33,063 bases of DNA from an uncultured Bacilli bacterium (GCA_947626655.1 CANQTA010000011.1:1-33063); one strand, 5' to 3'. Shown: positions 5,354 through 22,247, numbered from the stretch's first letter. Translations and numbers: made by a program. The notes: generated by a model not told the origin, from the letters alone.

Positions 5354-5435
5354 AAAAAATAGAAAGTAGTCAAAAAGAGCTGCTTTTTATTATGATTTAT
5401 GAGAGAATATGTATATAGTAAAGGAAGTGATTGAT

Positions 5436-6920: not shown

Positions 6921-6921
6921 A

Positions 6922-6950
6922 GAGTAACCTATTTAAAAGTTACTCGTTTT
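6922..6950 (+). terminator. Intrinsic terminator after the transposase
   Basis: GAGTAAC (6922-6928) pairs with GTTACTC (6939-6945), with a 10-base loop, followed by GTTTT. It lies just inside the right inverted repeat. Confidence 0.65.
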
Positions 6951-6959
6951 GAAGTGTTT

Positions 6960-6975
6960 AAGTCTGAGTAGTTAC
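6960..6975 (-). repeat. IS66 right terminal inverted repeat
   Basis: AAGTCTGAGTAGTTAC is the exact reverse complement of the left end at 5328-5343. Confidence 0.9.
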
Positions 6976-7004: not shown

Positions 7005-7033
7005 TTGACATCTAATTATTAATTAGGTAAAAT
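7005..7033 (+). promoter_or_regulatory. Near-consensus promoter of the first VirB2-like pilin, with a dyad in the spacer
   Basis: TTGACA (7005-7010) and TAAAAT (7028-7033) are 17 bases apart. The spacer contains a perfect dyad, CTAATT-ATT-AATTAG (7012-7026), which could be an operator. The promoter lies 30 bases outside the IS and owes nothing to it. Confidence 0.8.
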
Positions 7034-7067
7034 TTAGATAGATAGAAAAAGAAAGAAGGTTAATTAG

Positions 7068-7406
7068 ATGAGTTTTATGGGATTTTGTGCTGATACTGCA
7101 AAAATTTGGAACGTTTTAGGTTATGTTGTAATGATTATAAAAATAGTAATTCCCTTAATGTTAATTATTTTAGGAATGGTTGATTTAGGAAAAGCAGTAA
7201 TATCTAGTGATGAAAAATCAATTAATAAAGCCGTTTCAACATTAATAAAAAGATTTGTAGCAGCAGTAGTTTTGTTCTTTATTCCAACAATTGTCAGTGC
7301 AATATTTAATGCATTAGATTTATTGGGAGATGGAACTGATTATAATACTTGTGTTCAATGTGTAACGCAAACTTGTCCTGAAACTGCTCAAAGTAGTACA
7401 TATTAA
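7068..7406 (+). CDS. VirB2/TrbC-like pilin (Mbov_0395-like), candidate major subunit
   Basis: This 112-aa protein has two hydrophobic helices (about 15-40 and 63-88) separated by the conserved loop GMVDLGKAVISSDEKSI, then a short tail with three Cys (CVQC, TC). The topology is that of VirB2/TrbC pilins of conjugative systems. The same loop motif recurs in the next pilin (7490) and in the C-terminus of the 607-aa protein. There is no cleavable signal peptide. The gene stands alone between a near-consensus promoter and a strong terminator, as expected for an abundant structural subunit. AGAAGG upstream serves as ribosome binding site. Confidence 0.8.
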   Translation: MSFMGFCADTAKIWNVLGYVVMIIKIVIPLMLIILGMVDLGKAVISSDEKSINKAVSTLIKRFVAAVVLFFIPTIVSAIFNALDLLGDGTDYNTCVQCVTQTCPETAQSSTY

Positions 7407-7417
7407 TAGATATTTAG

Positions 7418-7438
7418 AAACCACGTTGGTGGTTTTTT
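7418..7438 (+). terminator. Strong intrinsic terminator after the first pilin
   Basis: AAACCAC (7418-7424), loop GTTG, GTGGTTT (7429-7435), then further T. It isolates the first pilin as its own transcription unit. Confidence 0.85.
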
Positions 7439-7462
7439 CATGTTTTAATTTTATTATAATTA

Positions 7463-7471
7463 TGGTATAAT
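7463..7471 (+). promoter_or_regulatory. Extended -10 promoter of the second pilin
   Basis: TGGTATAAT (7463-7471) is an extended -10 element. No good -35 is seen 17 bases upstream. GAGG at 7481-7484 precedes the ATG at 7490. Confidence 0.6.
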
Positions 7472-7489
7472 TGCAAATAAGAGGTTTGG

Positions 7490-7909
7490 ATGATGAAAAA
7501 GTTTTTAAACTATATTTTGGTTTTTGGGATAATAATGTTTATTCTTAATCCATCTGTTTTAGCAGCATCACTTAATTATAGTAATTTATGTGATAATGAA
7601 GGCATAAAAAATGCAGCTGAAATAGTTGGTTATGTGGTGTTATTAATTAAATGGATAGTTCCTCTTATTTTAATTGTTCTTGGGATGATTGATTTTGGAA
7701 AAGCTGTTATAAGTAATGATGATAAAGCATTAAATAATGCCACTAGTTCTTTAATAAAAAGAATTATCGCCGGTGTAGTAGTATTTTTTGTTCCTTCATT
7801 GGTAATGGCATTAGTCAATTTTATAGGTTTTACCCAAGGAATTGAAAATGACGCTGATTTTGCAACTTGTACTAAGTGTGTAATGGATGTTTTAAATAAT
7901 TGTAATTAA
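7490..7909 (+). CDS. VirB2/TrbC-like pilin with signal peptide
   Basis: This 139-aa precursor has a signal peptide (MMKKF, a hydrophobic core to about residue 22, then VLAA). The mature part has two helices separated by GMIDFGKAVISNDDKAL, nearly the same loop as in the 7068 pilin, and a Cys-containing tail (CTKC, NC). Unlike its neighbour it carries an export signal, so the two pilins probably enter the membrane differently. It is the first gene of a unit with the YwaF-like gene. A second in-frame ATG at 7493 is an equivalent start. Confidence 0.8.
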   Translation: MMKKFLNYILVFGIIMFILNPSVLAASLNYSNLCDNEGIKNAAEIVGYVVLLIKWIVPLILIVLGMIDFGKAVISNDDKALNNATSSLIKRIIAGVVVFFVPSLVMALVNFIGFTQGIENDADFATCTKCVMDVLNNCN

Positions 7910-7929
7910 ATTAAAGTAGGATGATTGGT

Positions 7930-8664
7930 ATGAATAAATTTTTTCTTAATTTAAATAAAGGTTTAGAAATAAGAATATTTAGCGTAGCACATCTTTTTTT
8001 AATTTTATTAGAGTTTTTGGCAATTTTTATTGTTTATAGAAAAAGAGATTATTTTTGTAATATTAAAAAACAAACAAAAAGAAAATATCAAATATTTTTA
8101 GCAAGTATAATTATTTTAAATTGGTTTTTAAGAAGGGGTAGCTTTATTTATTATGGGGTTTATGATTATCATAATCATCTAGATCTTAATTTTTGTAATA
8201 TAACTAGTATTTTATTTTTAATTTACTCTTTAACAAATAATAAAAATATCTATAATATTTGTTATTATATGGCTTTTATTGGGCCTTTGTTAGCTATTTT
8301 AATACCAAGTGTTAATATAAGAATTACTAATTATTCTTTTTATTCTTATTTAGTTATTCATCATATTATATTTTTATTTAATTATATGTTTATGTATATG
8401 GAAAATTTAAAATTTGAAAAAAGATATTTAAAACAATTAGGTGTTTTTTTAATTATTTATTTTATGGGTGTTTATTTATTTAATTATGTTTTTCATACTG
8501 GTTATAATATGCCAATTACTTTTTTAAATGGTAATATTACTAATTTATTAATAATTAAAATTGTAACTTATAATATTTATACGCAATTATTGACAATGTA
8601 TGGATTAATTATTTTGTTTATTTTGTTAGGTATTATTAATTTGAAGTTAAGTAGTAAAATATAA
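7930..8664 (+). CDS. YwaF/TMEM164-like (TIGR02206) integral membrane protein
   Basis: This protein of about 244 aa has six or seven hydrophobic helices. Family marks are NHLDLNFCNIT (a His...Cys-Asn-Ile stretch at the start of a helix) and the His pair in VIHHIIF, as in the YwaF family of uncharacterised bacterial membrane proteins. Its human relative TMEM164 has been linked to acyl transfer on lipids; no activity can be assigned here. It lies between two T4SS pilin genes, which is not a known position for this family. The ATG at 7930 is preferred because AGG at 7918-7920 is too close to the ATG at 7921. Confidence 0.7.
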   Translation: MNKFFLNLNKGLEIRIFSVAHLFLILLEFLAIFIVYRKRDYFCNIKKQTKRKYQIFLASIIILNWFLRRGSFIYYGVYDYHNHLDLNFCNITSILFLIYSLTNNKNIYNICYYMAFIGPLLAILIPSVNIRITNYSFYSYLVIHHIIFLFNYMFMYMENLKFEKRYLKQLGVFLIIYFMGVYLFNYVFHTGYNMPITFLNGNITNLLIIKIVTYNIYTQLLTMYGLIILFILLGIINLKLSSKI

Positions 8665-8691
8665 TTTAATATGGTGTTTAAGGAAAAAATG

Positions 8692-8700
8692 TGATAAAAT
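8692..8700 (+). promoter_or_regulatory. Extended -10 promoter of the ectodomain pilin and T4SS core operon
   Basis: TGATAAAAT (8692-8700) is an extended -10 sequence without a clear -35. TTGGAG (8725-8730) lies six bases before the ATG at 8737. Confidence 0.5.
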
Positions 8701-8736
8701 CTATATGTATGTAATATTACTAGTTTGGAGTAGCTT

Positions 8737-10560
8737 ATGAAAAAGAAAATTCTAAGTTTTCTAACAATTTTAATAGCATTGTTACCATTAGTGGTTATGG
8801 CTGGTGGAAATAGTGATGATATTGTTTATAATACCAATTACGAAAGTGGTTATGAATATGGTAACGTTACTAAATGTGTTAAAGGTGGTAGTGGCGGAAT
8901 AGCATATTTTGTAGGTATTAAAAAAGTTAGTGGTTATGATGTTTGCTTATGGACTCAATCAGGTAATCCGATGACTGCTGAGTTTGCTTGTGATGATCCA
9001 GAAATGGAAATGTTTGGTTTGGGTACAGTAGCAGATACCGAAGGTAATGCTTATAAAGGATTGGGTTGTAGAAAGCCAAAAGTTAATGGTAATGAGACAG
9101 TAAGTGATATTATGGTAGCTTATACAAATAAAGTAGTAAAGCCAAGTATGGCTAATAGTGGTTCTAAATGTAGTATAGTTTCTGGTGATGCGGTTAAATT
9201 AAATGGCTGTGATATTCAAGGCCTTAAAAATGGTACTGCTATTGTAAAAGTAACTCAAGCTGGTAAGAGTTATAATTATCAAGTTTATGTAGTGTTGTCT
9301 TCAAAAAAAGTTTATGTTGGTGAAACAGTTACAGTTGGTAGTATTATTAATACTACAATTTTGGGTGAATCAAGAATATCAATAAATAGTGACAATAAAT
9401 CTTTTACTGCTAAAGTAGCTGGTAATGTACTTATAAAAGCGAATCCTGATATTTATTATGAATATATTTTAGAAAATCGACCTACAGGAACTAGTAGTTT
9501 GGATAATAATTATAATTATGGAGATGTTAATGAGTGTAATCTTGACTTTTATGGTTTGGGAGATACATCGGGAAAAGTAAATTTTGATGGTCATACTTTT
9601 TGTGGTGTTAGTGAAAATAGTTTATATTATGATAAATATGATTATACATATGTTAAAATAACTTGTACTAATAGTGATTATGATTTTTTTCCTTTAGAGT
9701 TTACAGCTAATGGTTTAAAATATAAGGGTTTTGGATGTCGACAATCTAAAGATGGTAGTAATCAATATCAAATAGAAAATGTTTTTATTGGTCAAGAAAA
9801 AGAATATACTGGTAATTTAACAAGTGATTATTATGAGTGTTCTATTACAGAAGGTAGTGATAAAGCTTATTTTTTATCAAGTAATAAATGTAGAATAAGA
9901 TTTAATAGTGCAGGAATAGTTAAAGTTAAAGTTAAACATTTAAGTACTGGAGAAACTAAATATTATGAATATCATGTTACTGAATATGTTTCTGAAAATA
10001 GTACTTTGGATGGTTCTTATGAGTATGCAAATGTTAGTTCATGTAGCATTGGTTCAGGAACAAATAATATTGTAAATTTTAGTGGTTATAATTTTTGTGC
10101 TACTAGTAATTCGGTGTATAATTTAAATGATATTAATGCTTCATGTCCTGATAGTTTTGTTCTTTTTCCTATTGAATTTAATAGTAATGGAACTTTATAT
10201 AATGGTTATGGTTGTCGTAAGTCTTTAACTTCTATTGGTGGAGCTATTCCGGATATAGAAAAGGCTGATTGTGATTCGATGTTAGGAGATCCAGATACAC
10301 AAGGTACACCGGCCTTTTATTTAGATAAGGCTTTTAGAATTATTAGATATGTTGCTATTATTTTATTAGTAGTTTTAACTATGATGGATTTTATAGGTGC
10401 TACGGCTTCTAATGATCAAGATGCTATTAAGAAAAGCGCTCAAAAGGCTATAATTAGAGCTATCTTATGTGTGGCAATATTCTTTTTACCAACTTTAATT
10501 AAAATATTCTTAAAATATTTAAATAAAAGAGCAATAGATCTTTGTGGTATTGGTGGGTGA
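8737..10560 (+). CDS. Secreted repeat protein fused to a VirB2-like pilin module
   Basis: This 607-aa protein has a signal peptide (about 1-22). Its ectodomain alternates two repeat types. A repeats, at about 35-113, 255-336 and 424-495, run from a Tyr-Glu/Asn-Tyr start to G(L/F/Y)GCR and contain paired Cys. B repeats, at about 145-186 and 368-414, are Ig-like, with a Cys pair and a closing beta run; a B-like end is also seen near 220-246. Residues about 530-595 hold two helices with TMMDFIGATASNDQDA between them, matching the DxGKAVxSxD loop of the two upstream pilins. It may be a minor, tip or adhesive subunit. It heads the operon with VirB6, PrgI and VirB4. Confidence 0.75.
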   Translation: MKKKILSFLTILIALLPLVVMAGGNSDDIVYNTNYESGYEYGNVTKCVKGGSGGIAYFVGIKKVSGYDVCLWTQSGNPMTAEFACDDPEMEMFGLGTVADTEGNAYKGLGCRKPKVNGNETVSDIMVAYTNKVVKPSMANSGSKCSIVSGDAVKLNGCDIQGLKNGTAIVKVTQAGKSYNYQVYVVLSSKKVYVGETVTVGSIINTTILGESRISINSDNKSFTAKVAGNVLIKANPDIYYEYILENRPTGTSSLDNNYNYGDVNECNLDFYGLGDTSGKVNFDGHTFCGVSENSLYYDKYDYTYVKITCTNSDYDFFPLEFTANGLKYKGFGCRQSKDGSNQYQIENVFIGQEKEYTGNLTSDYYECSITEGSDKAYFLSSNKCRIRFNSAGIVKVKVKHLSTGETKYYEYHVTEYVSENSTLDGSYEYANVSSCSIGSGTNNIVNFSGYNFCATSNSVYNLNDINASCPDSFVLFPIEFNSNGTLYNGYGCRKSLTSIGGAIPDIEKADCDSMLGDPDTQGTPAFYLDKAFRIIRYVAIILLVVLTMMDFIGATASNDQDAIKKSAQKAIIRAILCVAIFFLPTLIKIFLKYLNKRAIDLCGIGG

Positions 10561-10565
10561 TATAT

Positions 10566-12734
10566 ATGAATCTAATAAATTTTTTATCAATTCCTGGTGT
10601 TTTTCAAAGTTTGTTAATTACCCTTTGTAACGGGGTTTATCGAGTAGCAGCTTTTGCTTTTCAAATATTTTTGATTTTAGCAACAGGTCAATTATTAGAT
10701 ACCAGTGATTATGAATTAATGATAACAAATTTTTATGTTATTTTAGGAATTGTCATGTTATTTGTTTTAGCATTTACTTTACTAAAAGGGATGGTTAATC
10801 CTGATGAACAAAAGAAAGGCGCTACAACTGTTAAAAAGGTTATAATTAATTTAGTAACGTCAGCATTGATTTTAGCTCTTTTACCAACTATCTTTGGTTT
10901 TGCTTTTGATTTTCAAACTGCAGTGATTGTAGAGCAAAATTCGATTGGTAAATTCTTTAATTATGGTGGTAGTAGCAATGATAATGTTGCTACTGTTAAA
11001 CAAGGTGCTAATCAAATTGTTAATGGTGTTTATACAGCTTTTTTAAATGTTAATGGTGATAATTGTGCAAATACAATTAATTCGAAAGAAGCTTTAGAAG
11101 CATGTCAAGGAAGTATTCCTTCTGAAGACAAAAAAAGGTTTGCTAATGAATCTTCTGAGCAATCACATACTTTTTTGGAAACAATTAATTATGTTGATCA
11201 GACTGGTTCTTTCGGAGCTTATAATGCTTTTGCTGAAAATATTGCAAATGATGATACTTTAGATTTTAATTTTTTGTTAAGTTTAATTGGTGGTTTAATT
11301 TTAGTTTATATAGCTGTTTCATTTTGTTTTGATATGGCAGTTCGATTAGTTAAATTAGTATTTTATCAATTAATTGCGCCGATTCCATTATTTTTAAGAA
11401 TTGTTCCCGAGGGAAAACTAAGTGATGTATTTAGTAAATGGGTTAAAATAACATTAACTTGTTATTTGGAAGTTTATATAAGAATATTTATCTTTTATTT
11501 TTGTATTTATTTATGTAATGCTATGTTAGGTTCTGATTTTATTAATAAGCAAGTTTATGGTTGGGGAGCATTTGTAGCATTAATTACTCAAGCTTTTATC
11601 TTAATGGGAATTATAACATTTATGAGAAGTGCACCAAAGTTGTTTAGTGAGGTAACTGGTCTTGATTCTGGTAATATGAAACTTGGTATTAAAGATAAGT
11701 TAGCAGCAGGTGGTGGCTTTGTAGCTGGATCTTTAGTTGGAGCTGGTGTAACATCAATGGTTAGAAATGGTCTAGTTTCTGGTGGGGCAATGGTAAACAA
11801 ATATAAGGAAAACAGGAAAGCTGGCAAAGGTAAATTTAGATCAGTTTTAGGTGCTTCTGGTAGTGCGGTTAAATTTTTAACTTCAACAGCTGCAGGAACA
11901 GTATCGGGTGCTTTTAGAGGTGGATATGCTGGTCTTAATGCTAAAAATTATACAGATGTTACGAAAGCTGCTAGTAAAGGTGCTAAAGGTGCTGTAGATG
12001 CACGAGTAAAGAGAGCTAATTATAAAGCTGCTCATGGTGGTAGTACGTTAGGAGCTACTATTGGTCATTTGAAAGATGCTGGTGTATCAATTAAAAATTA
12101 TGCTTTAGATCAAAGTATTGAAGGGTTGACAAGAGAAAGTAATAGTATGGGTAAATTGGCTTCTAGTTATAATTCATTTAGTGATGGTATAGAAAGTTTA
12201 TTGGAAAAGGAACAAGGAAAAGGAAATGGTTCAGTTTTCTTGTCAAATGGTTTTACTTTATCTCAATATACTGCTTTTGATGCTGCTGCTCAAAATCTTG
12301 CAAAGGCAAGGGCAGACTTTAATACAGGTAGAATAAATGCTGCTGCATTAAGAACAGCAGAACAGAATTATTCAAATGCTCGGGATAGTGCTCGAGATGA
12401 ATTAATGAATATGGTATTAGAAGGCAGTAAAGGTTCAAGATTTACAGCTTTAACAGCTAAAGGACAAGCAGCTTTAAAAGACAGTATGGTTAATGCTGAA
12501 TCATTACAAGCTGTTATATTGGAAAATGCTAATTCTAGTGTAGTTCAAAGTATTATGGGACCTAAAGGTAATAATGCTTTAGATGATATTGCCCATAAAA
12601 GACCACTATCTACAAGTTCGTTTGAATTTAATCATACTAAGTTAAAAGATGCTGCCAAGGTAGCCCAAGGACAAGCAGATATTAGAATAGCTGAAATGAA
12701 TAAAGAAAATGCTGCTAAGGGTGAAAAAAAGTAA
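10566..12734 (+). CDS. VirB6/TrbL-like polytopic T4SS membrane protein (Mbov_0396-like) with long soluble tail
   Basis: This is a protein of about 722 aa. About six hydrophobic helices lie in the first 360 residues (near 13-40, 53-74, 91-115, 235-262, 285-318 and 335-358), with a soluble loop between the third and fourth. The remaining 360 residues are Ala/Gly/Lys/Ser-rich, hydrophilic and probably helical. VirB6-like proteins form the inner-membrane channel next to VirB4 and VirB3. The ATG at 10566, six bases after the upstream TGA with GGTGGGTGA before it, is preferred over an in-frame TTG at 10542 inside the previous gene. The position before PrgI and VirB4 matches mycoplasma and firmicute T4SS loci. 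Confidence 0.8.
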   Translation: MNLINFLSIPGVFQSLLITLCNGVYRVAAFAFQIFLILATGQLLDTSDYELMITNFYVILGIVMLFVLAFTLLKGMVNPDEQKKGATTVKKVIINLVTSALILALLPTIFGFAFDFQTAVIVEQNSIGKFFNYGGSSNDNVATVKQGANQIVNGVYTAFLNVNGDNCANTINSKEALEACQGSIPSEDKKRFANESSEQSHTFLETINYVDQTGSFGAYNAFAENIANDDTLDFNFLLSLIGGLILVYIAVSFCFDMAVRLVKLVFYQLIAPIPLFLRIVPEGKLSDVFSKWVKITLTCYLEVYIRIFIFYFCIYLCNAMLGSDFINKQVYGWGAFVALITQAFILMGIITFMRSAPKLFSEVTGLDSGNMKLGIKDKLAAGGGFVAGSLVGAGVTSMVRNGLVSGGAMVNKYKENRKAGKGKFRSVLGASGSAVKFLTSTAAGTVSGAFRGGYAGLNAKNYTDVTKAASKGAKGAVDARVKRANYKAAHGGSTLGATIGHLKDAGVSIKNYALDQSIEGLTRESNSMGKLASSYNSFSDGIESLLEKEQGKGNGSVFLSNGFTLSQYTAFDAAAQNLAKARADFNTGRINAAALRTAEQNYSNARDSARDELMNMVLEGSKGSRFTALTAKGQAALKDSMVNAESLQAVILENANSSVVQSIMGPKGNNALDDIAHKRPLSTSSFEFNHTKLKDAAKVAQGQADIRIAEMNKENAAKGEKK

Positions 12735-12751
12735 AAAAGGAGGAATAAAAA

Positions 12752-13084
12752 GTGGACGAAGGAAGAAGAAATGCTTATTTAATACCTGCAAATACTAAGA
12801 AGTCACAATTAATATTAGGATTTTTTACTCCAACAGATTTATTTATATTTATAGTTGGGTGTGTATGGTCATTTGCAATGTTGCTTTTAATAAGTCATCC
12901 TAGTTTAGTGGTATTAATTATTATTATGTTACCAGCTTTAGTAGCGGCTTTCTTAGTAATGCCAGTGCCGCATTATCATAATGTATTACAGCTTATTACA
13001 AATATATTTAATTTTTACACCAATAGAAGACAATATTATTGGAAAGGATGGAATTATGAAAGATTCAACACAAACGGTAAGTAA
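12752..13084 (+). CDS. PrgI family (VirB3-like) T4SS membrane protein
   Basis: This 110-aa protein has an N-terminal soluble stretch (IPANTKKSQLILGFFTPTDL, typical of PrgI), two close membrane helices (about 29-47 and 50-68) and a C-terminal segment with YTNRRQYYW. PrgI/VirB3 proteins anchor the VirB4 ATPase at the membrane. The start is GTG with a strong AAGGAGG (12737-12743). Its last 29 bases overlap the next gene. Confidence 0.85.
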   Translation: MDEGRRNAYLIPANTKKSQLILGFFTPTDLFIFIVGCVWSFAMLLLISHPSLVVLIIIMLPALVAAFLVMPVPHYHNVLQLITNIFNFYTNRRQYYWKGWNYERFNTNGK

Positions 13085-13619
13085 TTCAAAATTTACTGAT
13101 GCTTGGCTTCCGGTGAAGCAAATTATGAATGGTATGATTCAACTTGATAGTGGCTATTATGTGACTGGGGTGAAAGTTCATCCAAGAAATATCTTTATAA
13201 TGGATCAAGCTCAACAAGATAATATGATTTATAATTTAAGAAATTTTTATAATACTATTGATTATGAATTTTGGTTAATTATAGCTGATCGTCCTGTCGA
13301 TATAAACTTATATTTAGCTGAATTACAAAGACATTATAATAATACAACTAGTAATGAAATTAGAAAGATTATTTTAGATGATATTAATAAAGCTAATAGA
13401 TTTATGAGTGCAGAGTATAACGTTGTAGATACAGAATATTATCTTATTTTTCAAGAGAAAAAGTTGGAAGTTTTACAAAAAAAATTACATAATTTGATTA
13501 GTGGACTTGCTAATGCGGGATTGCAATCAAGTCAAACAAGTAATAGTGATTTGAGAATTATTTTAGATAATTTACTTAATGGTGGTGAAACCATTAATTT
13601 TGGAACGGTGATGAGTTAA
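13056..13619 (+). CDS. TrsD/TraD-like stand-alone VirB4 N-terminal domain protein
   Basis: This 187-aa soluble protein starts with a domain pattern (WLPVKQIMNGMIQLDSGYYV) seen at the N-terminus of VirB4/TrbE-type ATPases. There is no P-loop. Staphylococcal plasmids pGO1 and pSK41 have a similar separate protein (TrsD/TraD) between a PrgI-like and a VirB4 gene, and the order here is the same. It probably forms part of the VirB4 complex at the membrane. The ATG at 13056 is chosen over an upstream in-frame ATG at 12981, which would lie deep inside the PrgI gene; AAAGGA lies about 8 bases before it. The next gene starts directly after its TAA. Confidence 0.75.
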   Translation: MKDSTQTVSNSKFTDAWLPVKQIMNGMIQLDSGYYVTGVKVHPRNIFIMDQAQQDNMIYNLRNFYNTIDYEFWLIIADRPVDINLYLAELQRHYNNTTSNEIRKIILDDINKANRFMSAEYNVVDTEYYLIFQEKKLEVLQKKLHNLISGLANAGLQSSQTSNSDLRIILDNLLNGGETINFGTVMS

Positions 13620-15401
13620 ATGAATATGAAAAATGAAATTGCTCCAAAAGGAATGGAGTTTAAACCAACAGAGTTTAGAATAGGTGGAAAGTATTCAACA
13701 ATTATTTCGATAGTGTCATTTCCAAAAAATATTTATGTTGGTTATTTATCTGATATAACTAATATTTCAGGCGTTAAAGTAATTGTTAAACATATTCCTA
13801 TTCAATTTAGTGTTTTACAAAAAATGATTAATAAAGAAATTGCTGACTTAAAAACTAGATATCAATCAGAACGTGATCAAACGATGCAAGAAAAAATTCG
13901 GCAAGATTATGAATCATTAGAACAATTTGTTAGTATGTTAGCTGCTACTGATGCTCGTATCTTTGATTTTCAAATGCATTTAATGGTAACAGCTGATAGT
14001 AAAGAAGAATTAGATGTTAAAAAGATGGAAGTTAAAAGTTATTTAAATGCTTTAGGTATGGGTGGAGTAGCTTTAATGTTCGAACAAGAGAAAGTTTTAA
14101 AAAGCGTTGTACCAATATTTCCAAAGCAAGATATAGAAAATAGAATTGGAACACCTATTCCATCTATTACAATTGCAGCGATGTATCCTTATGTTTTTGA
14201 TAGTATTAAAGATCCAGGATTATCTTGTTTGTTTGGAGTAGATTATTCTGGGGGAGTTGTTTTATTTAATCAATTTTTATATCAAATAAAAAATGAAAAT
14301 AATCGAAATAATGCTAATTTGATATTATTAGGAACATCTGGTAGTGGTAAATCTACTGCTGCTAAACTTCTTATTCGAAATCATATTAGAAATGGTTGTA
14401 AAATTGTTGCGATTGACCCAGAAGGTGAATTAGAAGAAATGGCAAAATCTGTTGGTGGAGATTTCTTGGATTTAGGTAAAGGCGGCAACTTTGGGATGGT
14501 TAATCCTTTAGAAGTGGTTGTTGATGTTGATGAACAAGAAATAGCTGAAGGATTAGGATATACTGTTTTAACAAGAACGTTGCAACAATTAAAAGCATTT
14601 ATGAAATATTATAATCCTTCGATTGAAGAAGATGTTTTAACTTTATTTAGTGAAGTTGTACAAGATACTTACCGAAGATATAGAATAGATTATAATACTG
14701 ATTTTACCAAATTGACTAGTGAAAATTATCCAACATTTGATGATGTTTATGCCACAATAAAAGGTAGATTATTATCAATGGTTGATGCAACTCATGAAAG
14801 AGATGTTATGGAAAGATTAGAGCTTAAGATTAGACCATTGGTACAAGAACTTCGGTATTATTTTACCGGTCATACTACAATTAAAATTACAAGTGATTTT
14901 ATTGTCTTTAATATAAAAGAATTAATGAATAGCGATGAAAATATTAAAAATGCTTTATTCTTTAATATTTTGAAATATGCTTGGGGATTATGTTTAGATA
15001 GTTCAGTAAATACAGTGATGATGGTTGATGAAGCTCATGTATTACTTGCTTCTCATAATGAATTAGGAGCTGAATTTTTAGCTCAAATTCAAAGAAGAAG
15101 TCGTAAATATAATACAGGTACAATAATAATTACGCAACAACCTACTGATTTTGCGGCACCAAATATTATTCAACATGGAAAAGCAATATTTGATAATGCT
15201 TCTTATTATTTGATTATGGGACTTCGGAAACAAGCAGTAGAGGATTTATCTAAACTTATCGATTTGAATGAAAGTGAAAAAGAAGGAATTAAATTCTATT
15301 CACAAGGACAAGGATTGTTTGTTTGTGGTAATCGACGGATGCGAATTAATGTAGTGGTAACTCAAGAAGAACTAGATTCGTTTGGAATTGGTGGTAATTA
15401 A
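13620..15401 (+). CDS. virB4: VirB4/TraE/TrsE-type T4SS ATPase
   Basis: This is a 593-aa soluble ATPase. Walker A GTSGSGKST is at 238-246 and Walker B VMMVDEAH at 466-473. Further conserved pieces are IDPEGEL, the RRSRKYNTG helix region and ITQQPTDF. VirB4 powers pilus assembly and substrate movement at the inner face of the membrane. It lacks the first part of the usual VirB4 N-terminal domain, which is supplied by the gene immediately upstream. It starts directly after the upstream stop (TAAATG), so translation is likely coupled. A terminator directly follows. Confidence 0.93.
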   Translation: MNMKNEIAPKGMEFKPTEFRIGGKYSTIISIVSFPKNIYVGYLSDITNISGVKVIVKHIPIQFSVLQKMINKEIADLKTRYQSERDQTMQEKIRQDYESLEQFVSMLAATDARIFDFQMHLMVTADSKEELDVKKMEVKSYLNALGMGGVALMFEQEKVLKSVVPIFPKQDIENRIGTPIPSITIAAMYPYVFDSIKDPGLSCLFGVDYSGGVVLFNQFLYQIKNENNRNNANLILLGTSGSGKSTAAKLLIRNHIRNGCKIVAIDPEGELEEMAKSVGGDFLDLGKGGNFGMVNPLEVVVDVDEQEIAEGLGYTVLTRTLQQLKAFMKYYNPSIEEDVLTLFSEVVQDTYRRYRIDYNTDFTKLTSENYPTFDDVYATIKGRLLSMVDATHERDVMERLELKIRPLVQELRYYFTGHTTIKITSDFIVFNIKELMNSDENIKNALFFNILKYAWGLCLDSSVNTVMMVDEAHVLLASHNELGAEFLAQIQRRSRKYNTGTIIITQQPTDFAAPNIIQHGKAIFDNASYYLIMGLRKQAVEDLSKLIDLNESEKEGIKFYSQGQGLFVCGNRRMRINVVVTQEELDSFGIGGN

Positions 15402-15403
15402 AT

Positions 15404-15431
15404 CTTTATAAAAAATTATAAAGGTTTTTTT
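15404..15431 (+). terminator. Intrinsic terminator after virB4
   Basis: CTTTATAA (15404-15411), loop AAAA, TTATAAAG (15416-15423), then a run of seven T. It closes the core operon. Confidence 0.85.
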
Positions 15432-15440
15432 ATGTTTTTC

Positions 15441-15469
15441 TTGACATACAATTGTTTGTAATGTATACT
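15441..15469 (+). promoter_or_regulatory. Near-consensus promoter of the 61-aa gene, with palindrome in the spacer
   Basis: TTGACA (15441-15446) and TATACT (15464-15469) are 17 bases apart. The spacer contains the palindrome ACAATTGT (15448-15455) and TACA...TGTA arms (15447-15450 and 15457-15460), a possible operator. Confidence 0.75.
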
Positions 15470-15497
15470 ATGGATAGACGATATAGAGAGGCAGATT

Positions 15498-15683
15498 ATG
15501 AAAAATGAAAAATTAAGTCAAAATGGAGTTAGTTATTTTTTGATAGGAAAAATTTTGGGTACTAATAGTAAGAAAAGATGTCAAAAATATTTAAAAATAT
15601 TAGAAAGTAGTTTAACTAAAGAAGAAATATGGTTAGCCAAAAGTACATATTTGAAAACCTTAGAGGTTAATAGTGATGAGTGA
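15498..15683 (+). CDS. 61-aa protein of unknown function in the T4SS locus
   Basis: I do not recognise this protein. It is basic and soluble, predicted largely helical (SYFLIGKILG, then SKKRCQKYLKILESSL, then TKEEIWLAKSTYLKTLE), with one Cys. GAGAGG at 15485-15490 is a good ribosome binding site. It sits between the virB4 terminator and the large wall hydrolase and has the best promoter of the block apart from the first pilin. A small regulator or a chaperone-like adaptor would fit its size and position, but nothing in the sequence proves either. Confidence 0.55.
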   Translation: MKNEKLSQNGVSYFLIGKILGTNSKKRCQKYLKILESSLTKEEIWLAKSTYLKTLEVNSDE

Positions 15684-15718
15684 AATAATTAGTAAATCTT
15701 TTTTTTATGAGGAAAGTA

Positions 15719-15727
15719 TGATAGAAT
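15719..15727 (+). promoter_or_regulatory. Possible extended -10 promoter before the wall hydrolase
   Basis: TGATAGAAT (15719-15727) fits an extended -10 element 30 bases before the ATG at 15757. There is no -35 match. GGTGGTG at 15744-15750 is the ribosome binding site. Confidence 0.4.
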
Positions 15728-15756
15728 TATATTAGCTTAGATTGGTGGTGCTCTAA

Positions 15757-18693
15757 ATGAATAATGATGAAAATAATGAAGAATTTGAAGATTATTTAGA
15801 GCCTGAAGAAACCGAAGAAAATGTTGGTAGTGAATTTTTAGATGAAGAGCCTGAAGAATTAGAAAATGATGATGTTGAAGAAGAATATGATGTTCCAAAT
15901 AGAAAAGAAAGCTTTGGCGAAAAAGAATATAGAGAAGCTAGAGATGAACATGGAAATTATGATAAAGATTATTATAAAAATAAGACTGCTGAAGCCGAAA
16001 AAAATGTAAATGAAGCTCGAGAGGAAAAAAATAAAAATTATAAAAATACTGATAATCAAAATGTTCAAGCTAATGGGGCAAATACAGTAAATAAAAATTT
16101 TAAAGATAAAGCTCAAGATAATTATAATCTTTTGAAAGCTAAGGGAGATTTAGCTCAAAATAAATTAAATGATATAAAGTCAAGAGTTTATCAAGCTACG
16201 CATCCTGGAGAAGTGTTAAAAAATAAAGCAGGAAGTGTTGGTAATAACTTAAAAGATGCCGCTAAAAGTAAAGCCAAGGAGGTTGGAAAAAAAGCTGGAG
16301 AAGCTATTTTAACTGGTGCTAAAGCTCTTCTTAAATTTTTAATGAAAAATCCAGTGGTACTTATTGTATTAGCTATCCTAGCTTTGTTAATATTTATTAT
16401 TTTACTTTTAGTAATTTTGTTTGGTGGCAGTTTATCTGATAATGATTCATTGGGATATTTTGATAGTTCTTGTAATTTTAATACAACGACGGTTGAACTT
16501 ACAACATGTAATACTCAATCTAGTACAAAAATGTCTTTAAAAAATTATGTAATAGGAGTAACTAGTTATTATACTAAAGATAATAACTATAGTGATGAAG
16601 TAATAAAAGCTTTGATGATCGTTATAAAAACAAATGCTTTAAGTAATGGAATGTATAATAATTCTTCAAAATTAGTAACATTAGATGATTGTAATATGGG
16701 GTATGAAGAAGTAACTGATAATAGTAGTTTAAATGATTTGTATGATGAAGTAGAAAATTATATCTTTGTTTCAGAATCTTATCAATCAGCAATTAGTAAT
16801 TTGTCGACTGTTAATGCTTTAGATTTTGATGCTAACACTTTAAGTCTTTTAAGTGAGGAAACTGGCAATTATGAAGATTTATTAAATAGTGTTTATGGTG
16901 GTACTGGTGGTACTACAAGTTCAACGACCTCTGATTATCGTGATACATTATTTTTAGGCGATTCTAGGATGCAAGGAATATTAAATGCTAATTTAATTAA
17001 CAAAAACAATACAGTTTATGGAGTAGGATATGGTTATGATTGGTTAGTAGGTAATGGAAGTTTTGATGCTACTAATACAAATTCTTTAGATGGTGGTATT
17101 AAAGGTATAAATACTAAAATTCGCCAAGGGGCTAGTTATAATATAGTTATTTGGTTAGGAGTAAATGATTATAGTATCAATGATGCAAATAAATATTATC
17201 AAAAATATGTTGAATTAGCGAGTGGAGATTGGAGTAATCATATAATATATGTTGTATCAGTGGGACCAGTTATGGATGAAAGATCGTTTTATGCTACAAA
17301 TAGCGAAATAACTAATTTTAATAATGAAATGCAAAGTTTAATAAATAATGGTGGGGTTAGTAATTTAAGATATATTGATTTAAATTATAGTGAAAATTCA
17401 ATTAGAGAATTTGATAGTGAAGGTATTCATTATAGTGATGAAGATTACAAAAATATTTATAATATTATGACAAGTAATTTAGAAAATAATCTTAGTAGTA
17501 AAAAAGTATTATATAATTTGAGTTCTTATTGTACGTATTATAATTTAACTGAAAATGATAGTTGGTGGTGGCCGATAGGAAGTAAAAATCCTACGGCTGG
17601 CGATATTTATGGGGGAGATCCGATGGATACTGTAATTACTTCTGTTGTAGGGCCAAGAAATACGGGAATTCCAGGGGCATCTACTAATCATGGGGGAGTT
17701 GATATTGCTTCATCTTTGTGTTCTGAAGTTCCTGTTATTGCTACTAAAGATGGTACTGTTATATATACAAATGATGGTTGTGTTCAAGGTAATAGTTCGT
17801 GTGGTTCTGGTTTTGGTAATTGGGTTGAAATTGATCATGGTGATAATATTGTTAGTATTTACGGTCATATGTCAATTAATACAATTCAAGTAAAGGTGGG
17901 GGATACGGTAAAACAAGGTCAAATATTAGGAAGAATGGGTTCAACTGGAACTTCTTCTGGTTGTCACTTACATTTTGAAATGCGAATAAATAATTCAAGG
18001 GTAGATCCTCTTCAATATGTTGATAAAGAAAATCCGCGCCCAATTAATACTTATAATTTTGATTTTAATAATTCAGGTAATAATACAGGAGGAAAACAAG
18101 CTGTTTGTCAAACTCTTTCGACATCAGGACTTTCAACATATGCGATAGCTGGAATTATGATTAATTTAGAAGCTGAAAGTAGTTATAGAACAAATAATTT
18201 GGAAGGATGCTATGAATCAGGTGTAACTTGTCATGGAAGTTCTGGTAGAAATTATGGTTGGTTTGCTAATTATTGTGGTGCTAATGGGAATACCAATTGT
18301 GGTAGTATAATTGGCTCATATGGAAGTGATCAAGCTTATACTTTAGGTGTTGATAGTGGTGAATATACAAAAGATAAATTTATGTATGATCATGCGGGAT
18401 ATGGTTTGTGTCAATGGACTAGTCAAGGTCGTAAAGCTTTATTATATGATCGAGCTAAAAGTGAAAATGTGTCAATAGCATCTTTGGATTTACAGATGAA
18501 ATATTTATTTTATGAATTAGAAAATAATACTAAGGAATTGTATTCTTATCTGCAAAGAAGTACTTCAACAAAAGATATAGCTTTGAAATTTTGTAATGAA
18601 TTTGAGAATCCCGGCTCTAGTACATGTACAAGAAGAGTTACAAATAGTGTTGTAGAAAGTATGAATAGTTATGTAACAAATGGTTGCAATTAA
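15757..18693 (+). CDS. Multi-domain T4SS cell-wall hydrolase: SGNH esterase, M23 peptidase and phage-tail lysozyme domains
   Basis: This 978-aa membrane-anchored protein has a charged, very acidic then Lys/Asn-rich cytoplasmic region (1-195) and one membrane helix (about 199-223). An exported region with SLKNYVIGV...ALMIVIKTNA (about 260-300) is weakly SpoIID-like. Next come an SGNH hydrolase domain (Ser403 in GDSR, GVND 468-471, His558), an M23 metallopeptidase (His645, Asp649, His704, His737, His739) and a C-terminal phage-tail lysozyme-like domain (Glu805 or Glu807 in NLEAES, then GLCQWTSQGRK). It should open peptidoglycan for the secretion channel, cutting both peptide and glycan; the esterase may remove acetyl groups. 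It lies upstream of VirB8-like and VirD4 genes. Confidence 0.88.
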   Translation: MNNDENNEEFEDYLEPEETEENVGSEFLDEEPEELENDDVEEEYDVPNRKESFGEKEYREARDEHGNYDKDYYKNKTAEAEKNVNEAREEKNKNYKNTDNQNVQANGANTVNKNFKDKAQDNYNLLKAKGDLAQNKLNDIKSRVYQATHPGEVLKNKAGSVGNNLKDAAKSKAKEVGKKAGEAILTGAKALLKFLMKNPVVLIVLAILALLIFIILLLVILFGGSLSDNDSLGYFDSSCNFNTTTVELTTCNTQSSTKMSLKNYVIGVTSYYTKDNNYSDEVIKALMIVIKTNALSNGMYNNSSKLVTLDDCNMGYEEVTDNSSLNDLYDEVENYIFVSESYQSAISNLSTVNALDFDANTLSLLSEETGNYEDLLNSVYGGTGGTTSSTTSDYRDTLFLGDSRMQGILNANLINKNNTVYGVGYGYDWLVGNGSFDATNTNSLDGGIKGINTKIRQGASYNIVIWLGVNDYSINDANKYYQKYVELASGDWSNHIIYVVSVGPVMDERSFYATNSEITNFNNEMQSLINNGGVSNLRYIDLNYSENSIREFDSEGIHYSDEDYKNIYNIMTSNLENNLSSKKVLYNLSSYCTYYNLTENDSWWWPIGSKNPTAGDIYGGDPMDTVITSVVGPRNTGIPGASTNHGGVDIASSLCSEVPVIATKDGTVIYTNDGCVQGNSSCGSGFGNWVEIDHGDNIVSIYGHMSINTIQVKVGDTVKQGQILGRMGSTGTSSGCHLHFEMRINNSRVDPLQYVDKENPRPINTYNFDFNNSGNNTGGKQAVCQTLSTSGLSTYAIAGIMINLEAESSYRTNNLEGCYESGVTCHGSSGRNYGWFANYCGANGNTNCGSIIGSYGSDQAYTLGVDSGEYTKDKFMYDHAGYGLCQWTSQGRKALLYDRAKSENVSIASLDLQMKYLFYELENNTKELYSYLQRSTSTKDIALKFCNEFENPGSSTCTRRVTNSVVESMNSYVTNGCN

Positions 18694-18722
18694 AATAAGA
18701 TAGAAAGAGGATGTTTTAATTT

Positions 18723-19643
18723 ATGCCTAAAAAACTCGATAATGGTAAAAAGAAAATTTTAATTATAATTGTTTTAATTTTGATGATCTCATCGGGGATA
18801 GCAATATATTTGAGTTTAAAACATAATGATAACGTTAATAATCCTAATTCAAATAATCCTAATAGTGGAAGTAATCCTTCCCAAGGAGAAGATAAACCAG
18901 ATGATGTTGAAGCTCATAATTTGGAAAATGAAGCTGAGTATTATGGAGTTCAAAATGCTCTTAATAATTATTATCTTTATTTACAAAATGGTGATAGTCA
19001 AAAATTATGGGATATTTTAGAAGAAAATTATAAAAATGAAAATAATATCACAGTTAATAATGTTTTAAATTATTTGGATAGAGATGTGGCTAATTTTATG
19101 GCTAAAAAAATATATTATAAAAGAATGAATGGTATATATTTCTATTTTGTGAATGGATATAGTTATAATTATACATTAGATGGTGTTGATAATTATCAAG
19201 AAGCAGTTAATATGTTAGTAATAGTTAAGAATAATCATTATGTTATAAGACCACTTTTAAATAATATTGAATTAAAAAGTTTGGCTGATAATTATCAAAG
19301 TAATAATATTAATGTTAGTGATAAATATTTGTTTGAAAGAAAAAGTATTGATGTTAATAATAAATTAGAAAGTTATATAGCAGAATTTTTAAATTTATTG
19401 AATTTAGATATTAATAGAGCTTATAGTATGCTTAATGAAGATATGAAAATTAAATATCCAAGTGTTGCTGATTTAAGAAAAGATAAAGATAATATTTTAG
19501 AGAATATTTCATCAAATATTTTTAGTTTAGCAACCAATGATAAAGTTGGTTATATAGAATATAAAATAAGGGATAAAAGGGAAAATAATATTACAATTAA
19601 TGAATATGAAATAATGAACTTTAAAATAAGTTTTGAGTATTAA
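18723..19643 (+). CDS. VirB8/TcpC-like bitopic T4SS protein with tandem NTF2-like domains
   Basis: This 306-aa protein has a basic N-terminus and one membrane helix (about 11-31). A flexible Asn/Pro/Ser linker (33-60) is followed by two similar alpha-beta regions (about 65-175 and 205-306), each starting with a helix pair of NTF2 type (NALNNYYLYLQNGDSQKLWDIL; LESYIAEFLNLLNLDINRAYSML, given here in part). TcpC and other Gram-positive VirB8-like proteins have this plan and form the channel core outside the membrane. Similarity is by architecture, not by conserved catalytic residues. It follows the wall hydrolase by 29 bases with AGAAAGAGG upstream, so it belongs to the same unit. Confidence 0.65.
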   Translation: MPKKLDNGKKKILIIIVLILMISSGIAIYLSLKHNDNVNNPNSNNPNSGSNPSQGEDKPDDVEAHNLENEAEYYGVQNALNNYYLYLQNGDSQKLWDILEENYKNENNITVNNVLNYLDRDVANFMAKKIYYKRMNGIYFYFVNGYSYNYTLDGVDNYQEAVNMLVIVKNNHYVIRPLLNNIELKSLADNYQSNNINVSDKYLFERKSIDVNNKLESYIAEFLNLLNLDINRAYSMLNEDMKIKYPSVADLRKDKDNILENISSNIFSLATNDKVGYIEYKIRDKRENNITINEYEIMNFKISFEY

Positions 19644-19649
19644 ATTTTT

Positions 19650-19678
19650 TTGATATTATTAAACTTTTATTGTATAAT
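19650..19678 (+). promoter_or_regulatory. Promoter of the VirD4 gene
   Basis: TTGATA (19650-19655) and TATAAT (19673-19678) are 17 bases apart. AGGAGG (19690-19695) follows, five bases before the ATG. Confidence 0.8.
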
Positions 19679-19700
19679 AATTATGAATTAGGAGGATTAT

Positions 19701-21935
19701 ATGAAATTTAAAGTAGAACCAAAAGATTTTTTCTTATTTGTATTATATTGTATAATATTATTATATTTGTGTGCTTTAGCAATTTCTAATCTTTTTTCTT
19801 TAGTAAACACAGGAACGTTTTATGGTCTTATTCCTTTTTCGGCTTTTACATTAAAATATTTGCCTTTTACTTTAGGATTATTTTTGGGAGTTTTAATATT
19901 AATTTTTACAAGTGTTTCTTCTTATATTTTTGATAAAGATAAAGGAAAAGGTTTTGGCTTAAAAATTAGTGATGAAAAAGCCAATGATGGTTATGCTAGA
20001 TGGGCTAAAGAAAAAGAAATAAAAGAATCAAGTCATGTAGAAAAAATTATTCCGACAGAAAAAGAATTGCAAGCGGCAGGAATTCCTCTTATTAATAATG
20101 GTAAAGAAATTTGGGTTGATAATGGTGATTATCACAATTTAGTTATTGGTTCAACTGGTTCAGGTAAAACTGAAAATTTAGTTTTTCCAATGGTTAACAT
20201 TTTAGCTAAAAAGGGTGAAAGTATGATTATTACTGACCCTAAGGGTGAAATTTATCGAAAAACAGCGGAAAATTTAAAAAAAAGGGGTTATAATGTAATT
20301 GTTTTGAACTTTAGAGAGCCGAATAGAGGTAATGCTTGGAATCCTTTGGCTCTTCCTTATCAATATTATAAAGAAGGTAATTATGATAAGGCAACAGAAT
20401 TGCTTGACGATGTAGCTTTAAATATTTTATATGATCCAACAAATAAAGGGGATTCAGAATTCTGGGAAAAAGGTTCTGCTGATTACTTTTCTGGTTTAGC
20501 ATTAGGATTATTTAAAGATGCTCAAGAAAAAGAAGTTAATTTAAATAGTATAAATTATATGAGTACTGTTGGAGAAGAGAGATATGCTACTAGTAATTTT
20601 ATAAAAGAGTATTTTAATTTAAAAGGGCCAAATTCTAATGAGTATATGTTTGCAAGTACAGTTATTAATGCTCCTTCGGATACAAAGGGTGGATTGCTTT
20701 CAACTTTTAGACAAAAAATAAGAATGTTTTCAACTCGTGAAAATTTGTCGGAAATGCTTTCATATAGTGATTTTGATATGCGGAGTATTGGTAAAGAAAA
20801 AACAGCAGTATTTATGATTATTCATGATGAAAAGAAAACTTATCATACTTTAATGACTATTTTTATAAAACAATGTTATGAAACTTTAATAGATGTAGCG
20901 CAAATGAGTGGTGGTAAGCTTAAACATCGGACTAATTTTATTTTAGATGAATTTGCTAATATGCCTCCGCTTAAAGATGTTGATAGTATGGTTTCAGCTG
21001 CTAGAAGTAGAGATATTAGATTTACTTTCATAATTCAAAACTTTGCCCAATTAAATGATGTTTATGGGGAAAATGTAGCGCAAGTAATTAGAGGTAATTG
21101 TGGTAATTTAATTTATTTAATTAGTACAGAGTTAAAAGCCTTAGAGGAAATTAGTAAAATGTGTGGAGAAGTTAAGTCTAAAGAAAAAGATAAGACTTCT
21201 TCAACCCCATTAATTACTGTTAGTGATTTACAAAAATTAAAACTAGGGGATGCAATAATAATTAGGTTGCGGACTAGTCCTTTTAAGACAAAATATACTC
21301 CTAATTTTAAAATTGATTGGGGAGAAGATTTTCCGGAAGCAAGTTATCCTGAAAGAAAAGTGGAACCAATTGCGTTATTCGATTTGAAAAAATTTGTCAC
21401 AGAAGAAAAGCGAAAAAGTATGATGAATAATAGTGGTATGAATCCTAATATGGGGATGGGTATGAATATGCCCGGAGCTAATCCAATGGCAATGCCTAAT
21501 CCGGGAAGACCAATAATGAATAGTAGTCCTTTTGGGATGTCAGCCATGGGAGATATGAGTGGTTTTAATCCATTAAATGATAGAAACCCAATGGGAGCTT
21601 TTCGTAATAGTGAGATGAATAGTAATATGAATCCTTTTAGTTCAAGTATGAGTATTGATGATATGATGAAAGATATTGATAAAAAACTAAAAGAATTAGA
21701 TGAAGAAGAAAAAAGACAAAAAGAAAAATTGAAAATGCAAAATAGAGAATTGATGGAATCGGCTAATGCAAATATTGATGCGTTTAATAAGAAATTGTTA
21801 GAAAATAATCAAGATGATAAAAATGAAAAGATAGAAAAACCAAAAGTTAATATTGATGTTGACAGTGTAATTGTCAATGAAAATGTTATAACTGATGATG
21901 AATTTTTTGACGATTTCTTTGATGGTGATGAATAG
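19701..21935 (+). CDS. virD4: VirD4/TraG/TrsK-type coupling ATPase with low-complexity tail
   Basis: This 744-aa protein has two N-terminal membrane helices (about 8-32 and 48-74) and a TraG/VirD4 ATPase domain. Walker A GSTGSGKT is at 150-157, ITDPKGE follows, and Walker B ILDEFANMPPLKD has Asp416 and Glu417. It would bring substrate to the channel. Beyond about residue 560 the sequence turns into a Met/Asn/Gly/Pro-rich region (to about 650), then a charged helix (DDMMKDIDKKLKELDEEEKR) and a very acidic end (DDEFFDDFFDGDE). Acidic tails can bind substrates or partners, but this one is unproven. It has its own promoter and a terminator overlapping its last codons. Confidence 0.93.
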   Translation: MKFKVEPKDFFLFVLYCIILLYLCALAISNLFSLVNTGTFYGLIPFSAFTLKYLPFTLGLFLGVLILIFTSVSSYIFDKDKGKGFGLKISDEKANDGYARWAKEKEIKESSHVEKIIPTEKELQAAGIPLINNGKEIWVDNGDYHNLVIGSTGSGKTENLVFPMVNILAKKGESMIITDPKGEIYRKTAENLKKRGYNVIVLNFREPNRGNAWNPLALPYQYYKEGNYDKATELLDDVALNILYDPTNKGDSEFWEKGSADYFSGLALGLFKDAQEKEVNLNSINYMSTVGEERYATSNFIKEYFNLKGPNSNEYMFASTVINAPSDTKGGLLSTFRQKIRMFSTRENLSEMLSYSDFDMRSIGKEKTAVFMIIHDEKKTYHTLMTIFIKQCYETLIDVAQMSGGKLKHRTNFILDEFANMPPLKDVDSMVSAARSRDIRFTFIIQNFAQLNDVYGENVAQVIRGNCGNLIYLISTELKALEEISKMCGEVKSKEKDKTSSTPLITVSDLQKLKLGDAIIIRLRTSPFKTKYTPNFKIDWGEDFPEASYPERKVEPIALFDLKKFVTEEKRKSMMNNSGMNPNMGMGMNMPGANPMAMPNPGRPIMNSSPFGMSAMGDMSGFNPLNDRNPMGAFRNSEMNSNMNPFSSSMSIDDMMKDIDKKLKELDEEEKRQKEKLKMQNRELMESANANIDAFNKKLLENNQDDKNEKIEKPKVNIDVDSVIVNENVITDDEFFDDFFDGDE

Positions 21936-21959
21936 GATTTTATATTACCATCTTTTTTT
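21921..21959 (+). terminator. Intrinsic terminator overlapping the end of the VirD4 gene
   Basis: GATGGTGAT (21921-21929) pairs with ATTACCATC (21944-21952; one G-U pair) and is followed by seven T. The 5' arm lies inside the last codons of the gene. It ends the T4SS block. Confidence 0.75.
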
Positions 21960-21989: not shown

Positions 21990-22247
21990 ATGAAAAGTAT
22001 TAAGGAAAGTGATTATTATCCTAATATGGGGATATTAATTGATGTTAGAGATCCAATTAGTTATAAAGAAAATCATAATCCTTATAGTATTAATATATAT
22101 TATGATAAATTATTGATGAATCATAAAACGCTATTAGATAAAAATCAAAAATATTATTTAATTTGTGATAAAGGACATAAAAGTAAAAAAGCAGCGCGAG
22201 TTCTTTCTTTTTACGGTTATGATGTAACATATATTATAAATAGATGA
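21990..22247 (+). CDS. Single-domain rhodanese-like protein
   Basis: This 85-aa soluble protein has the rhodanese marks LIDVRDPISYKENHNPYSINI at its start (quoted here in part by family pattern: DVRDP at 18-22) and an active-site loop ICDKGHKS with Cys59. The C-terminal LSFYGYDV matches the usual end of the domain. Such proteins carry a persulfide on the cysteine for sulfur transfer; the acceptor is unknown. It is shorter than typical (about 100 aa) but appears complete. The ribosome binding site is weak (GGTGAT). No link with the T4SS is visible beyond position. Confidence 0.8.
   Translation: MKSIKESDYYPNMGILIDVRDPISYKENHNPYSINIYYDKLLMNHKTLLDKNQKYYLICDKGHKSKKAARVLSFYGYDVTYIINR

Follow-up and report, generated by a model that had tools for sequence, protein, structure and literature searches.

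A resident type IV secretion system without a dedicated relaxase adjoins Tad-type pilus genes across a family of uncultured gut Bacilli

The known type IV secretion systems (T4SSs) of Gram-positive bacteria are nearly all DNA movers, and a 2025 review asks whether dedicated protein translocators exist among them (PMC12857230). The 89K T4SS of Streptococcus suis is reported to export a protease and, although also Gram-positive, lies on the pathogenicity island of one species and is not part of the core of a family (PMC12857230). In Patescibacteria (Saccharimonadia; PMC12102498, PMC12857230), a chromosomal, lineage-wide T4SS of the monoderm VirB1, VirB3, VirB4, VirB6, VirB8 and VirD4 type has no dedicated relaxase, and in a Saccharibacterium growing on its host the T4SS and type IV pilus are essential and comEC is not (PMC12857230). 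Archaeal Ced and Ted are domesticated chromosomal T4SSs that work with type IV pili (ups) (PMC9905601). Here we analyze a T4SS gene block at positions 7068–21935 of a 33,063-base stretch from an uncultured Bacilli bacterium (GCA_947626655.1, CANQTA010000011.1:1-33063), hereafter the window, which is the entire contig C11 of a 1.48 Mb draft genome in 84 contigs. An original prediction made from this sequence had proposed a relaxase-less T4SS in an apparently resident chromosomal location, and we find that the system is resident across a bacterial family and is encoded head to tail with a Tad-type pilus operon.

The genomes sampled at the level of the order belong wholly to one family of small-genome, uncultured bacteria from the gut and cover ~150 of its genera; their database labels read 'uncultured Bacilli', 'Mycoplasma sp.', 'Tenericutes' and Candidatus Caccenecus, and we take the order to be RF39 and the family to be UBA660. 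Of 38 genomes of the same genus, the source genome counted, 33 have a VirB4 ortholog with 86–91% identity, and orthologue-grade VirB4 (E below 1e-150; the family count comes from a table of 255 matches, 8 of them weaker than this grade) occurs in 247 of 291 family genomes from ~140 genera. Three of the five VirB4-negative genomes of the genus still have the pilus ATPase CpaF, so some absences look like assembly gaps. Outside the family, VirB4 reaches at most 34% identity in the class genomes sampled, and plasmid VirB4s top out at ~30% among the matches listed. VirB4 distances track UvrB distances (Mantel r 0.61, p 1e-4, n = 28 genomes), a ratio of non-synonymous to synonymous substitution rates (dN/dS) of 0.079 within the genus indicates purifying selection, orthologous VirB4 frames among the matches listed are open and free of internal stops, and T4SS gene order is the same across genera. 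Resident VirB4s form one clade separate from those of mobile T4SSs (support 0.74, midpoint root). The presence across genus and family and the Mantel test differ from the patchy, horizontally acquired distribution of an integrative and conjugative element (ICE), and patchiness among close relatives, named in the original prediction as a sign against residence, is not what we observe. Together, these data identify the T4SS with high confidence as a resident, domesticated and vertically inherited chromosomal system.

The block contains an intact monoderm-type T4SS gene set, all on the forward strand and with all frames open by open reading frame (ORF) calls and profile search. As in monoderm (MPF-FATA-like) systems, VirB4 and a VirD4/TcpA-type coupling protein are joined by VirB1, VirB3, VirB6 and VirB8 equivalents near virB4; the VirB4 and VirD4 profile matches are much too strong to be accidental, and more than ten genera share the gene order. 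The main part of the VirB4 ATPase is encoded at 13620–15401 (NF045975 1.2e-102; PDB 4ag5 1.8e-55) and the VirD4 coupling ATPase at 19701–21935 (NF045973, 294.5 bits against a cut-off of 250). A VirB6-like channel protein lies at 10542–12734 (NF045848 3.3e-9, below cut-off; conserved order) and a VirB3/PrgI/TcpE-like protein at 12752–13084 (PF12666 1e-4 and PF12648 7e-4, both below cut-off). The VirB1-like multi-domain cell-wall hydrolase at 15757–18693 matches M23 (5.5e-27), phage-lysozyme2 (1.1e-21) and, weakly, a SpoIID-like domain; between its SpoIID-like and M23 parts, at residues ~395–600, a motif reading by eye picks out a GDSR...H stretch of SGNH-hydrolase type to which no profile matched. 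The VirB8/TcpC-like protein at 18723–19643, whose N-terminal transmembrane helix is followed by two predicted extracytoplasmic domains of alpha+beta type, NTF2-like in the first, was not recovered as VirB8 by sequence search and is assigned by fold: an AlphaFold2 model with a mean predicted local distance difference test score (pLDDT) of 86.5 best matches TcpC of a Gram-positive conjugative plasmid (3ub1; Z 10.3, 109 residues, root-mean-square deviation 3.1), with ICESt3 OrfG at Z 8.4. PADLOC labels of mad8 and HerA for VirB4 and VirD4 reflect only general P-loop similarity.

Two components distinguish the resident system from its mobile relatives. The gene at 12981–13619, listed in the original prediction as a separate TrsD-like component, aligns to residues 7–186 of the single ~786-residue VirB4 found in mobile T4SSs of the same family (30% identity, 1e-17; ~1e-23 with a family profile), and the rest of that protein matches the main VirB4 gene. 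This alignment identifies the gene as the N-terminal half of a split VirB4 and rules out TrsD as an independent protein; the other listed parts (pilins, VirB6, PrgI/VirB3, VirB4, wall hydrolase, VirB8 and VirD4) are indeed present and intact by profiles, fold and open frames. VirB4 is encoded by two genes in all 81 resident loci scored, and in the window the N-terminal gene overlaps the VirB3 gene, which leaves its start codon uncertain. The second component is the long VirD4 tail, which ends in DDEFFDDFF (21900–21932); this ending, or one nearly identical, closes VirD4 in 34 of 36 resident copies and in none of the five mobile VirD4s examined.

The pilins of the T4SS form a variable array. 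Two VirB2-like pilins had been recognized, and both stand, at 7068–7406 (PF18895 4.5e-5, below cut-off; conserved position) and 7490–7909 (signal sequence; PF18895 1.3e-4, below cut-off). A further gene at 8737–10560 encodes a 607-residue protein with a large secreted N-terminal part, containing three cysteine-containing repeats at residues 41, 261 and 430, and a C-terminal region that aligns to VirB2-like pilins and forms the third pilin domain of the block. Across the family, VirB2-like pilin arrays number a median of two and up to eight per locus, 57% of the pilins are longer than 200 residues, and in a subset of 34 long pilins similarity is 38% over the pilin domain and 16% over the remainder, as expected if the large divergent N-terminal parts act as variable surface heads.

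Upstream of the T4SS, the window carries the end of a Tad-type pilus operon that belongs to the same conserved unit; the left flank is not made up of ordinary genes, as the original prediction had taken it to be. Two small prepilin-like genes lie at 2817–3065 (a Tad/Flp-pilin candidate with a weak Pilin_N match, preceding TadE-like and CpaE-like genes in many genera) and 3069–3314 (N-terminus paralogous to the first; conserved order), and the Flp profile gave no match in either. They are followed by two TadE/F-like minor pilin candidates at 3326–3838 and 3848–4345, each placed by position and a single N-terminal hydrophobic segment with no Pfam match, and by a two-domain CpaE/TadZ-like gene at 4361–5353 whose product is 42–78% identical family-wide. 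The CpaE/TadZ-like model (pLDDT 81) has a C-terminal ParA/MinD fold, with Z 14.5 to ParF over 161 residues of the C-terminal half and a Foldseek match to 3fkq over 409 columns spanning both domains (E 4.9e-4). PDB sequence searches with CpaE-like, VirB8-like and TadC-like profiles gave no matches, and fold comparison placed the first two. The remaining Tad genes of the source genome, from the large surface protein to TadC, are on contig C25; they include CpaF (PF00437 3e-29; similar scores with the TadA-family model, 98 bits, and the VirB11 model, 111 bits, both below cut-off), CpaB/RcpC (PF16976 28.6 bits against a cut-off of 28.8; TIGR03177 1.4e-11, below cut-off), a DUF5411 protein assigned by profile, and TadB and TadC candidates whose position, size and hydrophobic segments fit, with no profile or PDB sequence match. 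CpaB/RcpC, a CpaF/TadA-VirB11-like ATPase, a CpaE/TadZ-like protein, two membrane proteins at TadB/C positions and small prepilin-like genes are shared with known Tad (Flp) operons; unlike in a usual Tad operon, the genes run head to tail into a T4SS, include a large surface protein and DUF5411, and encode TadB/C too divergent for profiles.

Gene order and co-occurrence link the two halves of the unit across the family. In 8 of 10 genomes, read ~20 kb to each side, a Tad half (large surface protein, DUF5411, CpaB/RcpC, CpaF, TadB-like, TadC-like, prepilin-like, TadE/F-like and CpaE/TadZ-like genes) is followed by a T4SS half (VirB2 pilins, VirB6, VirB3, VirB4-N, VirB4, VirB1, VirB8 or a lipoprotein, and VirD4), an arrangement that appears to be ancestral. 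Of 83 genomes compared, 41 have CpaF and VirB4 on one contig, and in 39 of these the two are no more than 15 kb apart. CpaF is missing from 11 of 15 genomes with neither a VirB4 nor a VirD4 ortholog, compared with 15 of the 130 remaining genomes (p 7e-7; 8e-9 when co-loss is scored loosely). Genus g99 (L129–L130, L135–L136) has a VirB4 locus without adjoining VirB1–VirD4 or Tad genes; genome G135 retains VirD4 on a separate contig and CpaF 37 kb off, and the unit in this genus therefore looks broken up rather than lost.

The resident T4SS has no dedicated relaxase. We recognized no relaxase, integrase ORF or tRNA in the window and no long flanking direct repeat, with repeats limited to the ends of an IS66-family element and weak AT-rich ones, in agreement with what had been read from the sequence. 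Across genomes we searched PF03432, PF01076 and three hidden Markov models (HMMs) built from same-family relaxases, with MobT, MobQ, MobF, MobH and MobC profiles outside the genome-wide search; the first two HMMs matched none of the family's mobile T4SSs, which use a third relaxase type, and the third HMM covers that type as a positive control, six of its nine strong matches being its own training sequences and three not. All nine of the family's mobile T4SS loci in this comparison, whose VirB4 is ~32% identical to the resident form, have a relaxase at a distance of 2–5 kb from VirB4 or VirD4. By comparison, 1.7 Mb around ~100 resident loci, which include close relatives and are not 100 independent cases, contains one relaxase, in an unrelated insertion ~12 kb upstream of VirB4 (G254), so that conservation of the block without a relaxase, the check the original prediction had proposed, is borne out. 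Of 145 family genomes, 23 have a PF03432 match above the cut-off, and none of these matches adjoins resident VirB4; where the two share a contig they are 71 kb (G045) and 115 kb (G147) apart. Near-identical mobile relaxases and VirB4s occur at L227 (G062), L228 (G179) and L230 (G130), in three genera of the family, which suggests a recently spread conjugative element.

Neighboring genes and insertions frame the unit in the source genome. PD-(D/E)XK transposase-family genes, related copies, lie at the ends of C11 (window 125–391) and C25 (L157 119–1051), which probably explains why the assembly breaks off after TadC and resumes ahead of the prepilins. A YfhO gene ahead of the prepilins also occurs in locus L123, and downstream of VirD4 the ten genomes read mostly carry rhodanese, VTT and RmuC genes, represented in the window by a rhodanese-like gene at 21990–22247 (PF00581 5e-9) and a VTT-domain membrane protein at 22291–22881 (PF09335 3e-15), both on the forward strand. 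An IS66-family element (5328–6975, forward strand) with a single transposase ORF (5409–6920), 16-bp inverted ends and an 8-bp target-site duplication (TAATTATT) interrupts the run from the CpaE-like gene to the first VirB2 pilin, sitting right at the former's stop codon; it is missing from this place in all other loci examined and is a late insertion and no part of the machine. A TMEM164-like membrane protein gene at 7921–8664 on the same strand (PF14808 2.7e-20), with a GC content of 17% against 28% for the T4SS block, is found in no other T4SS locus examined and is probably a late insert too.

By description, the closest parallel is the Patescibacteria T4SS. In addition to its residence and component set, the Patescibacteria system shares VirB2-like pilin arrays, a reduced genome and the presence of a type IV pilus in the cell. 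It differs in belonging to another phylum and in several features of the genes: in the Bacilli, the pilus is of Tad type and is encoded directly alongside the T4SS, VirB4 comes as two chains, the pilins have large N-terminal regions that vary, and VirD4 is usually in the same block and ends in DDEFFDDFF, whereas in Patescibacteria it is seldom near virB4. The best profile matches and the same core gene set come from FATA-type ICEs and plasmids of Bacilli and mycoplasmas (NF045975, Mbov_0397 VirB4; NF045973, CD1115 VirD4), from which the resident system is set apart by a VirB4 identity of at most ~34%, the relaxase next to the T4SS in checked mobile members, and a distribution neither mobile nor patchy. 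Archaeal Ced/Ted likewise lack a relaxase, and by description DNA import has been demonstrated there and not for the Bacilli system (PMC9905601). A literature search, which took in papers on RF39 and on gut lineages with reduced genomes, found no comparable T4SS described in RF39 or UBA660 and no pairing of Tad with VirB4, most subscription papers lying outside the search. The T4SS parts themselves are ordinary; what the literature found does not describe is residence throughout a family of Bacilli, this lineage's two-gene VirB4, the VirD4 ending, and T4SS and Tad pilus genes joined in one block.

These features suggest a shift from plasmid spreading to contact with neighbors and export of other cargo. 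We favor, with moderate confidence, the interpretation that the T4SS is domesticated, has lost self-transfer and forms one unit with the Tad-type pilus for contact-dependent export. In the mechanism we propose, the Tad pilus (CpaB, CpaF, TadB/C-like proteins, prepilins and CpaE/TadZ), its assembly powered by CpaF, and the VirB2-like pilins would contact another cell; the VirB1-like enzyme would open the wall; VirB3, two-chain VirB4, VirB6 and VirB8 would form the membrane channel; and VirB4 and VirD4 would serve as the T4SS motors, roles predicted from the protein families. VirD4 would pick the cargo, with the acidic aromatic DDEFFDDFF tail as a likely, putative docking site, and export would follow contact made by both kinds of pilin. 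Because a dedicated relaxase is missing, VirD4 is kept and DNA uptake has separate candidates, the cargo would most likely be protein, delivered on contact to neighboring bacteria or host cells, a proposal to which we give about an even chance. More tentatively, and on balance doubtfully, the Tad pilus and T4SS may be one machine in which CpaF doubles as VirB11 and variable pilin heads choose the target, which would make it the first family-wide dedicated protein (effector) injector in Gram-positives.

Several observations weigh against contact-dependent export by a joint machine. The machine is known from its genes, with no cargo gene identified, and TadB, TadC and TadE/F are named from position and topology with no profile match. 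Fifteen of 145 genomes retain the T4SS without CpaF and four have CpaF without the T4SS; VirB1–VirD4 is not downstream of VirB4 in some genomes; and the co-loss of Tad and T4SS genes may be explained by physical linkage alone. In the source genome, the IS66-family element between CpaE and the first VirB2 gene could reduce downstream expression. Mob_Pre (PF01076) relaxases, present in half of the genomes (72 of 145), could in principle use the resident T4SS in trans.

This last point leads to a first alternative, which we consider unlikely, in which a resident conjugation machine moves Mob_Pre mobilizable elements to neighbors in trans through VirD4, itself retained and of conjugative type. Mob_Pre relaxases are encoded at four places in the source genome, two of them on contig C17 and the others on C7 and C23, with none on C11; one of those on C17 (L001 1240–3270) encodes a Mob_Pre relaxase followed by a tyrosine-recombinase-like gene and resembles an integrative and mobilizable element. 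A relaxase and integrase elsewhere in the genome, with direct-repeat ends spanning the block, had been named as evidence that would count against residence, and these loci are in small separate elements, none near the T4SS, so the resident interpretation holds. Mob_Pre presence shows no association with the T4SS that would point to dependence, occurring in 4 of 12 genomes without VirD4 and 68 of 133 with it (p = 0.37), and genome G119 has five relaxase matches and no resident T4SS. Complete mobile T4SSs already exist in the family, and transient selfish elements alone would not maintain purifying selection on a host machine in ~140 genera.

An attachment or pilus device alone, in which VirB4 and the Tad ATPase build pili and nothing is translocated, is about as improbable. 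Tad pili are adhesive, and the large hypervariable pilin heads and the arrays of up to eight pilin genes fit such a role; yet VirD4, unnecessary for making pili, has an ortholog in 127 of 145 genomes, disappears along with VirB4 (p 2e-11) and ends in a conserved tail, and the channel parts VirB6 and VirB8 are also retained. Of the functions the original prediction had offered in place of conjugation (protein export, DNA uptake or surface attachment), this retention of VirD4 favors substrate export over attachment alone.

DNA exchange or uptake, in the manner of archaeal Ced/Ted or Helicobacter ComB, appears slightly less probable again. The Helicobacter ComB system dispenses with a coupling protein of the VirD4 type, whereas the resident T4SS retains one. 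A precedent is Ced, a chromosomal T4SS that has been domesticated, has no relaxase and acts together with type IV pili (PMC9905601, PMC12102498), and ComEC is common in the family (129 of 145 genomes; on C1 in the source genome). However, ComEC presence is independent of the T4SS (p 0.62), which rules it out as a T4SS partner. Contig C8 (L158 3774–5111) encodes a second type IV pilus ATPase, PilB/GspE/ComGA-like and distinct from the Tad ATPase, and family members probably also have a competence-type pilus. Plain DNA uptake by the T4SS is disfavored, because the genome has this separate ATPase as well as ComEC, and the presence of ComEC is unrelated to that of the T4SS. An old conjugative element decaying after loss of its mobilization genes, which parts relocated in some genomes and the IS66-family and low-GC insertions in the source locus might suggest, is scarcely credible and already contradicted by conservation (dN/dS 0.08, open VirB4 frames among the matches listed, and gene order kept over many genera).

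For contact-dependent export, the family genomes with T4SS losses provide a large natural set for cargo discovery by co-occurrence. If the parallel with Saccharibacterium holds, contact-dependent reliance on neighbors may be widespread in reduced-genome gut Bacilli.

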